A DNA stretch of 36,737 bases from a virus, in the IMG/VR virus record IMGVR_UViG_3300005043_000007, positions 1 to 36,737 of that record; one strand, 5' to 3'. Shown piece after piece: positions 4,363-11,486 of this stretch. The notes under the pieces are model-generated. The model ran no database searches and was not told the origin of the DNA. It saw only the letters and a program-made list of their open reading frames with translations. How positions within the stretch are numbered: the first letter of the stretch is position 1; each line of letters begins with the position of its first letter. A program made the translations under genes and the position numbers.

Positions 4363-4506
4363 ATGAGAAATCAAAAGTACAAAACCCGCGCCATGATGGA
4401 AAATGACCTGAAAGCCTATAAAAAACGCTTATTAAAAGCTGAATTGTTCTTCTGGTTAATTATAATCGTTAGTTTAACGTCTTTAATCGTGAAAATTATC
4501 ACATGA
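4363..4506 (+). CDS. Small membrane protein, 47 aa
   Basis: ATG at 4363, TGA at 4504-4506 overlapping the methyltransferase start (ATGA at 4503). The N-terminal 25 residues are basic (MRNQKYKTRAMMENDLKAYKKRLLK). Residues 28-46 are a clear hydrophobic segment (LFFWLIIIVSLTSLIVKII). This is a tail-anchored or single-pass inner-membrane topology with the N-terminus inside. AAGTTAAAA upstream is a weak ribosome binding site. Coupling to the methyltransferase gene is likely; function unknown. Confidence 0.5.
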   Translation: MRNQKYKTRAMMENDLKAYKKRLLKAELFFWLIIIVSLTSLIVKIIT

Positions 4507-5297
4507 GGGTTCTCGATTTATTCAGCGGTATAGGCGGCTTTTCTCTTGGGCTTGAACGCGCTGGAATGGAAACAGTGGCTTTTTGTGAGATAGAAGATTT
4601 CCCCCGGTCCGTACTAGCCAAACACTGGCCAGACGTTCCAATTTTTAGAGATGTTAGGAGTTTAGATTATGACGGAACAGTTGACCTTATTTGCGGGGGA
4701 TTCCCTTGTCAGCCATTCAGTGTTGCCGGGCAGCGAAAAGGCGCAGATGATGACCGCCACCTCTGGCCAGCTATGTTTGGCCTCATCAAGAAATACAAGC
4801 CGCGTTGGGTTATTGGAGAAAATGTTGCTGGTTTCGTCAGCATGGCGCTCGACGACGTGCTTACTGACTTGGAGGGTGAGGGTTACAGATGCCAATCATT
4901 TATTATTCCAGCTTGCGCCGTCAACGCCCCTCATAGAAGGGACAGAGTTTGGATTGTGGCACACGCCGAAAGCTCTAATGATAGAGGAGGATCCGGAGAG
5001 TTTTATAAAAAGAATGGGGGACAGATCGGACAAATGCGCGCCAAATCTAGCAGTTCAAGTCAAGCACAAACGTCTCTGGCCGACCCCGAGAGTATTTATG
5101 CACAAGGACAGCACAACAGACAGGGGGAAAGGGAATTTAGGGGAAGTAGTTGGTGGGAAATTGAACCCGATGTGGGTCGAGTGGCTAATGGGGTTCCCAG
5201 AAGGGTGGACAGACTTAAATCACTCGGAAACGCAGTCGTCCCGCAAATACCCGAAATTTTAGGTCTGGCAATAATGGAAATAGAAAATGAAAAGTAA
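4503..5297 (+). CDS. dcm-like: DNA (cytosine-5) methyltransferase
   Basis: 264 residues with the full C5-MTase motif set: motif I DLFSGIGGFSLGLE (residues 5-18, SAM binding), motif IV GGFPCQPFS with catalytic Cys69, motif VI GENV (106-109), motif VIII APHRRDRVWIVA (142-153), and motifs IX/X as VDRLKSLGNAVVPQIPEI (235-252). It methylates cytosine in double-stranded DNA, probably protecting phage DNA from host restriction; no cognate endonuclease is nearby. The target-recognition part (about 155-218) is short and low in complexity (Ser/Gln/Gly-rich), which is odd. That same stretch of DNA is also read in the +1 frame by a 197-codon ORF with its own ribosome binding site. The 3' end overlaps the adenine-type methyltransferase by 11 bases. 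Confidence 0.92.
   Translation: MRVLDLFSGIGGFSLGLERAGMETVAFCEIEDFPRSVLAKHWPDVPIFRDVRSLDYDGTVDLICGGFPCQPFSVAGQRKGADDDRHLWPAMFGLIKKYKPRWVIGENVAGFVSMALDDVLTDLEGEGYRCQSFIIPACAVNAPHRRDRVWIVAHAESSNDRGGSGEFYKKNGGQIGQMRAKSSSSSQAQTSLADPESIYAQGQHNRQGEREFRGSSWWEIEPDVGRVANGVPRRVDRLKSLGNAVVPQIPEILGLAIMEIENEK
4669..5262 (+). CDS. Overprinted protein, 197 aa, nested in the +1 frame of the cytosine methyltransferase gene
   Basis: A 594-base open frame lies entirely inside the methyltransferase gene. Its ATG (4669) is preceded by AGGAG (4656-4660) with 8-base spacing, as good as any start in the window. The product starts MTEQLTLFAGDSLVSHSVLP, continues with SAWRSTTCLLTWRVRV, FQLAPSTPL and EFGLWHTPKALM, then RLWPTPRVF. 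It ends with GKLNPMWVEWLMGFPEGWTDL and a short tail. I recall this C-terminal LNPxWVEWLMGFPxGWTDL signature and the LFAGDS...LWPTP pattern from many phage and prophage proteins annotated separately or as methyltransferase parts. If so, two conserved proteins share this DNA. Function unknown; it could be a specificity or accessory partner of the enzyme. Not verified by search. Confidence 0.7.
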   Translation: MTEQLTLFAGDSLVSHSVLPGSEKAQMMTATSGQLCLASSRNTSRVGLLEKMLLVSSAWRSTTCLLTWRVRVTDANHLLFQLAPSTPLIEGTEFGLWHTPKALMIEEDPESFIKRMGDRSDKCAPNLAVQVKHKRLWPTPRVFMHKDSTTDRGKGNLGEVVGGKLNPMWVEWLMGFPEGWTDLNHSETQSSRKYPKF

Positions 5298-7008: not shown

Positions 7009-7827
7009 ATGAGCAAGTTTCACCCAGAAAACCCAGAAGGCATAAAACAAACGCCGGAAAATATTGCGGCGCATGAGAGAGGGCAGGAAGTCACCATCCC
7101 ACAAGGAACGGCAATCGTAAGCGCAGAACAGCAAATGATCCAATCGATCGCGGTTATGGCGCAAGATCCGAACGTTGACGTCGAGAAGATGGAAAAGCTT
7201 TTTGATATTCAGATCAAAATGATGGACAGGCAAGCGAAAATGGACTTCGATCAAGCCCTAGCGAGAGTTCAGGCAGACATGCCACGCATCACGGAGAACG
7301 GCCAGATCAAAAATAGGGAAGGGCGCGTCACCGCAACATATTTGAAGTATGAAGACATAGATCGAGAGATCAGACCACGCCTATCGGCCGAAGGGTTTTC
7401 ATTAGTTCACACCAGAACCGAAAACAACAACAAAATGATCGTTATAACCAAACTCAAGCACAAAGGAGGGCATGAAGAAGTTGTTGAAATGCCCCTTCCT
7501 TATGACGCGCCGAACAAAATGAAGAACCCTGTGCAAGCCGCAGTCTCTACATTCTCATACGGCAAGCGTGTGAATGTGTGCTCTCTTCTGAATATCGTGG
7601 CGCAAGGTCAAGACGACGACGGTCAAATGGCAGATTGTAATCCAATATCTGACGAACAGGCGGCCGAGATTAAAGATCGTCTTGAAAAGCTATACGACGC
7701 CGGCTCAAACGTAGATACAAGAAAGCTCTTGAATTATATTGGAGCGAATAGCGTTGATGAAATCCCAGCCACCAAATACGAAGACACGATCGCGCTTCTA
7801 GCTAGAAAAGAAAGTGAAGGTGTATAA
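7009..7827 (+). CDS. erf-like: ERF-family single-strand annealing protein
   Basis: 272 residues. Residues about 70-200 match the ERF superfamily: AKMDFDQALARVQADMP, then TYLKYEDIDREIRPRLSAEGFSLVHTRTE, VITKLKHKGGHEEVVEMPLPYD and the conserved NPVQAAVSTFSYGKRVNVCSLLNIV. ERF proteins coat single-stranded DNA and anneal complementary strands during phage recombination and circularisation. The C-terminal 60 residues form a separate helical domain (DEQAAEIKDRLEKLYDAG, RKLLNYIGANSVDEIPA). It works with the YqaJ exonuclease two genes downstream, an equivalent of lambda Red. The stop overlaps the next start (TAATG). Confidence 0.9.
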   Translation: MSKFHPENPEGIKQTPENIAAHERGQEVTIPQGTAIVSAEQQMIQSIAVMAQDPNVDVEKMEKLFDIQIKMMDRQAKMDFDQALARVQADMPRITENGQIKNREGRVTATYLKYEDIDREIRPRLSAEGFSLVHTRTENNNKMIVITKLKHKGGHEEVVEMPLPYDAPNKMKNPVQAAVSTFSYGKRVNVCSLLNIVAQGQDDDGQMADCNPISDEQAAEIKDRLEKLYDAGSNVDTRKLLNYIGANSVDEIPATKYEDTIALLARKESEGV

Positions 7828-8087
7828 TGGGCAAAAAATTATATTATGTGCAAGACAAGCGACAGATTGTAGGAAATTCGATGCTGTGGTGGGCGAAAGA
7901 CAGCAGAGGATATACTTGCGATATTCGAAAAGCCCATGTGTTCAGTGAAAGCGAAATAAAAAACTTTCGTGATACTGATATACCTTGGCCGAAAGACTTT
8001 ATTGACGGACGTCTACAGCACCACGTCGACTGCCAATCTGTAAAAACAGACCTAGAACAATGGAAGGTTCACAATGAGACACTTTGA
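7827..8087 (+). CDS. Conserved small phage protein of the recombination operon
   Basis: 86 residues, start overlapping the ERF stop by one base. The sequence KLYYVQDKRQIVGNSMLWWAKDSRGYTCDIRKAHVFSESE followed by WPKDFIDGRLQHHVDCQ looks familiar from small phage proteins that sit next to recombinases. The pattern 'yyvqD.r..vGNsm.WW.kd..GYtcdi..A.vf' recurs there. No catalytic motif is evident and the function is unknown to me. It is held between the annealing protein and the exonuclease, overlapping both, so a role in the same process is plausible. Confidence 0.75.
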   Translation: MGKKLYYVQDKRQIVGNSMLWWAKDSRGYTCDIRKAHVFSESEIKNFRDTDIPWPKDFIDGRLQHHVDCQSVKTDLEQWKVHNETL

Positions 8088-8793
8088 TTTCGTACACAAC
8101 ACAGACCCATGGATGAGAGCGCGCGGAGGTTTGGCCACCACGTCTTCGTTCGGAAGCATCATCACGCCAAGCGGAGCGAAAAGCGGCCAGATGGACGGCT
8201 ATGCGAACCAGGTCGTCGTCGAATTATTGCTTGGCAAGTCCTGCGATCGTGATTTAAGCAACCTTTACGCGATCCAATGGGGTCACGAATGGGAGGACAA
8301 GGCGGCGGATCTCTATCAATTCGAAACAGGATTCGATCTTAAGCACGGCGGCTTCTTCACCGATGATCATTTCAAATACGGTGCGTCGCCTGATGCGATC
8401 GTCATGGACGACGGCGCGGAAGTTGGTTTGGTTGAGATAAAATGCCCTGAAAACCCTGTAAAGCATGTTGAATTTCTCTTCTCGCAGACGATCAACAAGA
8501 CTTACAAGCCGCAGCTATTCGGTCAAATGATTATCACAGGATTCGAATGGGTAGATTATTTTTCTTTCTATCCAGAACTTCCACACGTGAAGATCAAGAC
8601 CAGGAAAGAAGACGACTTGGTTTTCTATAAAAAACTTGAAGATCTTCTGGATGAATTCAGTGACTTGGTTCAGACGAAGCTTGAAGCGATGGTCGCATGT
8701 GGTCATATAAACGAAGTCCCGGTCAAGTTCATAGAGCAACCGAAAGAAGTCGTGCAGCCTAACAATTCACAGTCAACATATATGGCTGGATAA
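8074..8793 (+). CDS. YqaJ/lambda-exonuclease-type 5'-3' exonuclease
   Basis: 239 residues. The PD-(D/E)XK core is complete: GHEWEDKAADLY (70-81, conserved Glu), GASPDAIV with Asp107, VEIKCPENP with Glu121 and Lys123, and YKPQLFGQMIITGFEW. The start is RARGGLATTSSFGSIITPSG, the substrate-binding part. The enzyme degrades one strand of linear duplex DNA to give the single strands used by the ERF protein. The gene overlaps the previous one by 14 bases. Confidence 0.9.
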   Translation: MRHFDFVHNTDPWMRARGGLATTSSFGSIITPSGAKSGQMDGYANQVVVELLLGKSCDRDLSNLYAIQWGHEWEDKAADLYQFETGFDLKHGGFFTDDHFKYGASPDAIVMDDGAEVGLVEIKCPENPVKHVEFLFSQTINKTYKPQLFGQMIITGFEWVDYFSFYPELPHVKIKTRKEDDLVFYKKLEDLLDEFSDLVQTKLEAMVACGHINEVPVKFIEQPKEVVQPNNSQSTYMAG

Positions 8794-10804: not shown

Positions 10805-11023
10805 ATGCCCAATAAAATAACAGGTACAGTAAAATGGTTTAATCATGGTAAGGGCTTCGGCTTTATTAAGCCGGACGACGGAGGCGCGGACGTATTCGTT
10901 CACATCACCGCAATTCAAGACTCGCACTTGGACAGCCTAAACGAAGGCGATAAAGTGAGGTTCACTATTGCTAATGGCAAGAATGGAAAAGTTCAGGCCG
11001 AAATAATCGAAATCACAAATTAA
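10805..11023 (+). CDS. csp-like: Cold-shock domain RNA/ssDNA-binding protein
   Basis: 72 residues, a complete CspA-type OB fold: GTVKWFNHGKGFGFIKPDDGG contains RNP1 (KGFGFI), and DVFVHITAIQ contains RNP2 (VFVHI). The end SLNEGDKVRFTIANGKNGKVQAEIIEI is also canonical. Cold-shock proteins melt RNA structure and can act as antiterminators. The gene lies just upstream of the structured RNA at 11030, which may or may not be a target. It may have been taken from a bacterial host. Confidence 0.93.
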   Translation: MPNKITGTVKWFNHGKGFGFIKPDDGGADVFVHITAIQDSHLDSLNEGDKVRFTIANGKNGKVQAEIIEITN

Positions 11024-11029
11024 CCTTAT

Positions 11030-11137
11030 GGGGGCTGCGGCGTGGACAGACACGCATACAACGGGTCATAACCGTAACGTTACTAGGAACGGATCGACGA
11101 GACTAGATAGCAGGTGAAAACCCTGCCAGCCCTCCCA
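11030..11137 (+). ncRNA. Structured intergenic RNA with tRNA-like features
   Basis: The 139-base gap between two genes folds into four hairpins closed by a long-range stem. GGGGGCTG (11030-11037) pairs with CAGCCCTC (11127-11134), 8 bp with one G-T. Inside are GCGTG/CACGC (11040-11044/11051-11055), ACGG/CCGT with the 7-base loop GTCATAA (11061-11075), CGTT/AACG (11078-11091) and GCAGG/CCTGC with a 7-base loop (11110-11126). The last hairpin abuts the closing stem with no gap, like a T-arm on an acceptor stem, and CCA follows at 11135-11137 after one discriminator base. Against a real tRNA: the T-loop TGAAAAC lacks TTC, the D-loop lacks GG, and joins are too long (107 nt). No T-run follows, so it is not a terminator. 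Confidence 0.5.
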
Positions 11138-11162
11138 AATTTTAAAGAAAAAGGAATATAAT

Positions 11163-11486
11163 ATGCCTATTTATCTAGTAATTACACCCGACGATGAAGC
11201 GATGGTCAACGCGCCAAACAAGTCAAGCGCAATCAATCACGTCATTAAGAACACAATAAGCGCCAATGTGTTAAGCCCTGAGAGTATAATTGTGCGCATG
11301 GAAGACGGCCAACAGGTTCAAAAGGCCACATCTTCCAAAGAAACGGCCGTCAAGCCAATGAACGCAGAAGGCGGCAATCCTGAAATCGAGGCGATCGCTG
11401 GTGAATATCCAGACGAATACGCCCCAACGGAAGACGATCTTTCTGGATCTCAAGGATTCGGCGATCCTAGAAACGCGGAGGCTTAA
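11163..11486 (+). CDS. Hypothetical early protein
   Basis: 107 residues; AAGGA stands about 7 bases before the ATG. The N-terminal half has a strand-helix-strand pattern (MPIYLVITPDDEAMVNAPNKSSAINHVIKNTISANVLSPESIIVRMEDG) ending in a variable, Asp/Glu/Gly-rich tail (EYPDEYAPTEDDLSGSQGFG). It follows the structured RNA directly and could be regulated by it. No family recognised. Confidence 0.7.
   Translation: MPIYLVITPDDEAMVNAPNKSSAINHVIKNTISANVLSPESIIVRMEDGQQVQKATSSKETAVKPMNAEGGNPEIEAIAGEYPDEYAPTEDDLSGSQGFGDPRNAEA

Follow-up and report, generated by a model that had tools for sequence, protein, structure and literature searches.

A tRNA-like structured RNA in the early region of a bacterial virus and its relatives in other viral contigs

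Described tRNA-like RNAs and the window RNA

Phage T4 has for decades been known to encode small stable RNAs next to its tRNA genes, with no clear function. RNAs C and D of T4 (species 1 and 2), likewise with no known function, resemble the RNA described here, which is encoded in an IMG/VR virus record of 36,737 bases (the window, i.e. the whole stretch analyzed) whose source is a virus of bacteria. They are small, stable phage RNAs adjoining tRNA genes, and rnaC has a T-arm at its end, although with the canonical T-loop TTCGAAT. They are probably not close relatives, the T-hairpin being absent and the scores weak: R2, one of two covariance models of the family described below, reached 15.5 bits (E 0.23) on part of rnaC and gave nothing for rnaD, and the other, R1, matched neither of them. 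GOLLD and ROOL, phage RNAs of unknown function, are often near tRNA islands (PMC12286853), but they are far larger and ornate, and no Rfam match to them was found in the window or in the units of the viral contig L303. Among bacterial RNAs, the YrlA-type Y RNAs are non-decoding, contain a tRNA-like domain and were proposed as competitors of an anticodon nuclease (PMC7790460); this source and PMC13096335 provide precedents for tRNA decoys. The likeness to YrlA lies in being a non-decoding RNA with a tRNA-like domain; however, Rfam gave no YrlA match to the window, and one other unit scored 13.6 bits against a cut-off of 69. A Ro60/Rsr (TROVE) gene was found in none of 10 records, which may be fragments, and the partner could be the host's. 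In the literature covered by our search, outside of which most subscription papers fall, no description of the tRNA-like family was found, which does not establish that it is unpublished.

With class II-type phage tRNAs (RF00005) the window RNA shares a 7-bp acceptor, arms in D- and T-position and a T-arm placed against the acceptor, and some of its related units are located within phage tRNA clusters. Unlike tRNAs, it has CG at positions 8-9 instead of U8, no TTC in the T-loop, no GG in the D-loop and no conserved anticodon arm. ARAGORN reported neither tRNA nor tmRNA, while Rfam gave nothing at gathering score in the window and nothing up to E 10 for 10950-11230; tmRNA, with its tag reading frame and fold, was rejected on these searches. 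A reading made from the sequence alone had argued against a standard tRNA and asked for such covariance-model searches (tRNA, tmRNA, Rfam), and the outcome agrees with it. For one 81-nt unit, the closest Rfam family was tRNA-Sec (RF01852), likewise a long tRNA with a large variable arm; the score of 22.9 bits is below the cut-off of 47, the window is unmatched, and the resemblance shows a tRNA-like outline only.

A decaying or odd tRNA that still decodes, class II-like with a long variable arm and anticodon CAU, would fit the cloverleaf-like outline, the loop GTCATAA with U33 and A37, the CCA, the weak tRNA-Sec match and the tRNA-Met(CAT) genes that often neighbor other units. We regard it as very unlikely: neither program calls a tRNA, the linker and T-loop depart from tRNA as described, the anticodon-like hairpin is absent from the syntenic relative and uncommon in other units, and the stems are maintained by paired changes, with no decay. 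The window RNA is probably unable to decode.

The window RNA and its syntenic relative

The RNA is about 105 nt long and is encoded between two early genes (Table 1), in a same-strand run that includes the genes of an Erf-like annealing protein and an exonuclease. Six bases separate it from the cold-shock stop codon and 25 from the start codon at 11163. No ORF of at least 60 aa in the window ORF list covers 11030-11137. Elsewhere in the window, a C-5 cytosine methylase ORF (4503-5297) overlaps a 197-aa ORF in another frame (4669-5262) that looks protein-like by eye.

Table 1. Features of the window RNA and of its genomic setting.
Feature	Coordinates	Strand	Evidence
Whole tRNA-like RNA, including extra 5' G and CCA	11030-11137	+	fold; R2 (window-free model) matches 11031-11133
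Closing stem, 8 bp	11030-11037/11127-11134		fold
Acceptor-like stem, 5' strand GGGGCTG	11031-11037	+	fold, L054 comparison, R2
Eighth closing pair, added to the 7-bp acceptor-like stem	G11030:C11134		fold
Two-base linker CG	11038-11039	+	identical in GGATCGG-type units (CG fixed by search pattern)
D-position hairpin GCGTG-GACAGA-CACGC	11040-11055	+	fold; L305 counterpart is GCGTG-GATAGA-CACGC
Central region, varies among units, largely absent in L054	11056-11109	+	fold, unit comparison
Anticodon-like hairpin, inside central region	11061-11075	+	fold
Loop GTCATAA	11065-11071		sequence, fold
Weak hairpin, inside central region	11083-11106	+	fold
T-like hairpin GCAGG-TGAAAAC-CCTGC, abuts acceptor 3' strand	11110-11126	+	fold, T-arm-blind set, R2
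Acceptor-like stem, 3' strand CAGCCCT	11127-11133	+	fold, L054 comparison, R2
Discriminator-like C (pairs with G11030) and CCA	11134-11137	+	sequence, fold; not conserved in relatives
Erf-like annealing protein gene, upstream	7009-7827	+	similar genes near units elsewhere
Exonuclease gene, upstream	8074-8793	+	similar genes near units elsewhere
Cold-shock-domain protein gene, upstream	10805-11023	+	PF00313, E 2.8e-25
107-aa gene, downstream, also after the RNA in L054	11163-11486	+	protein comparison

The minimum free energy of 11030-11137 is -40.0 kcal/mol, the mean of shuffled sequences being -28.84 (sd 3.43; z -3.25), and 3 of 200 shuffles gave folds as stable. The sequence-only reading had described a closing stem, four hairpins, a 5-bp/7-nt hairpin with no gap to the 3' closing strand, and a CCA (11135-11137) one base past the acceptor-like stem; the fold returned all of them in place, with C11134 preceding the CCA.

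A single close (syntenic) relative was found, in the viral contig IMGVR 3300028417_000013 (L054/L055), whose proteins include homologues of the 107-aa downstream protein (49% identity) and the exonuclease (73%) of the window. Its RNA of 63 bases occupies the same place as in the window, between a cold-shock gene and the homologue of the 107-aa gene. The acceptors GGGGCTG/CAGCCCT (window) and GGGGATG/CATCTCC (L054) differ at three pairs: a double change puts A-U in place of C-G, and single changes put G-C in place of G-U and G-U in place of G-C. The position-10 hairpin of L054, TGCAT-AGTTCA-ATGCG, has both bases replaced in each of its five pairs, of which the first is U-G, and the T-like hairpin differs by a single loop base. 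The region of the anticodon-like hairpin is absent from this RNA while the frame is kept, so the middle is dispensable there. Since R2 matched only the T-hairpin in L055 (10.6 bits), the kinship rests on gene order and anatomy. A protein with Gly/Ser/Tyr/Asp repeats (SGYGDGSG) was seen upstream of or near the region in L054 (4406-4636) and L120 (10198-10464), and none was seen in the window.

Two details of the sequence-only reading hold for the window but not for its relatives. The loop with U33, CAT and A37 is present, but its hairpin is gone in L054 and the CAU loop is not conserved; G11030 does pair with C11134, as in tRNA-His, but this end is not conserved either, L054 having TACA after the acceptor strand. 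The same reading had offered regulation in cis of the gene at 11163, to which the cold-shock gene can be added as a target. Both genes flank the RNA in L054 too, and cold-shock proteins bind RNA. Nevertheless, the RNA ends 25 nt ahead of the 11163 start codon with the ribosome site outside the fold, no terminator-like site was found on the + strand between 10500 and 11600, and related units adjoin other genes and tRNAs, so that we hold a cis-regulator to be highly improbable.

Members of the family in other viral contigs

The T-hairpin 17-mer was found in 61 viral stretches, some matches adjoining tRNAs. With the window, the 62 matches reduce to 37 non-redundant contexts that are not too close to an end. 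In 12 of them the hairpin is immediately followed by a complete closing stem of 7 bp with no more than one G-U, against 0-3 at the printed offsets of 5 to 36 bases. A search with 16 bases taken from the acceptor and D region matched 52 stretches. The units of L070 have a common acceptor, GGATCGG/CCGATCC, and flank an ordinary tRNA. A pattern with this acceptor, the CG linker and three T's fixed and the T-arm left free (T-arm-blind) gave 50 matches in 48 viral stretches, with 35 distinct middles. In 26 of these 35 a 5-bp T-stem immediately precedes the acceptor strand, being GCAGG/CCTGC in 24 of the 26, with variable loops of 7 or 8 bases. The remaining nine, most of them apparently coding or chance matches and one (L288) a possible unit, did not enter later counts. 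A 5-bp hairpin with no more than one G-U is found at position 10 or 11 in 23 of the 26 units, compared with 0-3 in 26 at positions 13-60. The window RNA has the same GCAGG/CCTGC T-stem, gapless 7-bp acceptor and D-position hairpin at 10 or 11. Most units do not encode CCA, and an anticodon-like hairpin is uncommon among them.

A covariation count on 11 rows showed 7 of 12 pairs changed on both sides and 99.2% of cells paired (0 of 500 shuffles), but it is partly circular, because 9 of the 11 rows were picked for a stem or the fixed acceptor, only the window and L054 having been picked by gene order. The R2 model was built from eight units of other viral contigs, the window excluded. In a search of 67,650 bases (the window and two related loci), it matched window positions 11031-11133 over its full length with 42.4 bits and E 9.4e-8, E-values of R1 and R2 coming from a shortened calibration, and all 17 modelled pairs are standard in this match. 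The suspicion of the sequence-only reading that the structure is more than chance is borne out by this recovery. As a control, R2 was run on 15 loci (110,466 bases) that include the T4 tRNA cluster, a cluster of 26 tRNAs and further phage tRNAs; the look-alike L074 came first with 22.2 bits, followed by T4 tRNA-Ser, the best ordinary tRNA there, with 20.7. Fifteen T-arm-blind units outside the R2 training set scored 27.8-52.4 bits, a range that includes the window. Ordinary tRNAs with the GGATCGG acceptor reached 31-33 bits, below the window, which has another acceptor; nearly all units of the model have GGATCGG, fixed by the search pattern, and no member above 40 bits other than the window departs from it.

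We are confident that the window RNA is a conserved structured RNA of a phage tRNA-like family, and its membership is well supported. The members have a constant frame, made of a 7-bp acceptor, a two-base linker, a D-position hairpin and a T-like hairpin set on the acceptor, with a central region that differs. The relatives with compensating changes that the sequence-only reading had called for were found for the tRNA-like outline (L054, the T-arm-blind set and R2), and the maintenance of this outline through paired changes supports its idea of a tRNA-like structured RNA.

Several look-alikes were rejected as members. With R2, L074, L092, L097 and L113 reached 19.5-22.2 bits and L101, L076 and L087 10.4-15.1 bits, only L074 being above T4 tRNA-Ser; L085 and L093 (R1 only) had 19.8 and 19.9 bits. 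The first four (L074 253-352, L092 1156-1260, L097 9726-9847 on the - strand, L113 7134-7249) have the same T-hairpin and a short GCG...CGC stem in D-position, and form a second tier inseparable by score from class II tRNAs. L076 and window 11091-11107 have GATCGACRAGACTAGA in common just before the T-hairpin, the rest of the RNA being different. L087 (2281-2424, - strand), in a contig with seven tRNAs, may encode a tRNA-like RNA with a canonical T-loop in its D-position hairpin (GTCTG-TTCGAAC-CAGAC), and L271 (5595-5666; R1 15.5 bits) is tRNA-like, with a D-position hairpin, T-arm and CCA and no visible anticodon arm. Haloarchaeal tailed viruses (HF2 and the HRTV group) were discarded, the 16-18 common bases lying by chance inside a different hairpin. 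The matches of a variant hairpin with loop TGCGAAC were apparent ordinary tRNAs, two other tRNA-like RNAs and chance hits. A scan of the genome collection gave at least 116 stretches; the matches listed, also rejected, are coding or chance contexts and a repeated Peribacteria/Peregrinibacteria group, presumably 23S rRNA. R1 had no match in bacterial genome sets of 5, 398 and 240, which shows little as no positive-control genome was included, and queries from the window and five other loci found no convincing relative of the family among named phages. Another conserved and unannotated RNA-like stretch, different from this family, occurs in phage tRNA clusters, with the core GCAGATTAATCACCGAAA.GTTTGATTAGCAGCAGGTG and no closing stem seen (L066 146-250 on the - strand, L114 9507-9611, L069 about 2680-2790, L238 1501-1579, L247 1025-1098, and Aeromonas phages phiA005 and 4_L372X).

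Arrays, tRNA contacts and possible role

Units may occur several in a genome. In L303, four are in tandem within 711 bases without genes between them. R1, built with the window and units of some of the records later searched, had matches in 19 of 20 whole records, which were chosen for having units and some of which were used in R1; G002 has nine (70737-70810 being an ordinary tRNA), G010 five and G017 five. In 7 of 24 scanned contigs a unit begins one base past the end of an ARAGORN tRNA, called tRNA-Met(CAT) in six of the seven. The window RNA has neither array nor tRNA neighbor (one R1 match and no ARAGORN tRNA in the record); since single units are seen in several other contigs too, these neighborhoods are not required for membership. 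Some ordinary tRNAs in clusters share unit traits (L070 3354-3427, L059 7856-7925, L282 145-213): one with anticodon TCA has the same GGATCGG acceptor and T-stem as the units, and tRNA-Met(CAT) genes have the T-loop TGCGATT, with G at position 55. Among the neighbor genes (ten loci viewed and 20 chosen proteins tested, L313 left out), exonuclease VIII-like, RecT-like or Erf-like proteins were found in L305, L276, L283, L280 and L302, and Sak4-like, UvsX-like or replication proteins in L278, L274 and L294, while the two proteins tested from L303 had no match. The same kinds of genes are upstream of the RNA in the window.

We infer that the window RNA is transcribed together with the early genes. 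Host tRNA-processing enzymes would then free it, RNase P at the 5' end of the acceptor and a 3' nuclease at the other. RNase P, 3' nucleases and EF-Tu all read this portion of a tRNA, the T-hairpin stacked on the 7-bp acceptor, and where a unit begins one base past a tRNA, the maturation of that tRNA would release the unit at or close to its 5' end. Judging from these sequence features, tRNA-like excision of the window RNA seems somewhat favored, and the seven contigs lend indirect support to the processed phage RNA proposed by the sequence-only reading.

Excision could itself be the function, the fold being a punctuation element that marks where RNase P and the 3' nuclease cut the early transcript and thereby give the cold-shock and downstream mRNAs their own ends, the excised RNA itself being idle. 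The tight fit between two same-strand genes, as also between genes in L054, and the conservation of precisely the frame read by processing enzymes are consistent with it. Punctuation, however, needs neither recurring middles, nor tandem units without intervening genes, as in L303, nor units beside tRNAs that already provide cuts, and we consider it a doubtful explanation.

The middles vary between units within one contig, yet recur across contigs: L303 shares them with L279 (1907-2030 and L303 2203-2326), L070 (3526-3635 and L303 2395-2503) and L276 (9827-9925 and L303 2623-2720). This would be expected for a scaffolded small RNA, the frame serving processing and stability and the exchangeable middle binding an RNA or protein target of its own. 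Against this, complementarity of the middle within the available sequence was not above that of shuffled middles in seven of eight units, and L054 is nearly devoid of a middle, so we find it unlikely; the L283 middle has one 13-base match (0 of 60 shuffles, uncorrected for eight tests). The loops vary too. Among distinct pairs from 37 model matches, TT-type T-loops accompany all six GTGGGAA-type D-loops and 1 of 23 other D-loops (Fisher p 1.5e-5, with post hoc classes). This pairing only suggests an elbow contact, since the classes were set after seeing the table and shared descent was left in. The window loops are of the second kind, a GACAGA D-loop with a TGAAAAC T-loop.

Returning to an RNA acting in trans, we suppose that once freed it would persist as a stable, non-decoding molecule that resembles tRNA and would most likely engage a host factor that binds tRNAs, as a decoy or a competitor; a tRNA-cutting defense nuclease is one example of such a factor. 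The decoy role is a tentative guess, and the whole chain, from family RNA through early co-transcription and tRNA-like excision to a decoy in trans, is put forward with the same reserve. A pure decoy does not explain the recurrence of specific middles, which speaks for an additional specific role, and nothing in the analysis points to a particular target.

More speculatively, these RNAs may constitute an unnamed viral family, non-decoding and built on a tRNA frame, with several members in some genomes. Each unit would have a target of its own through its exchangeable central domain, in a modular trans-acting system, such as baits against tRNA-targeting defenses, deployed with early recombination genes. 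The many members, with a fixed tRNA-like frame and a changing core, make the question testable by comparison and experiment. The window RNA and the L303 units are reported by neither ARAGORN nor Rfam, and if they were baits for tRNA-cutting defenses, they would represent an RNA-based counter-defense missed by current gene finders.
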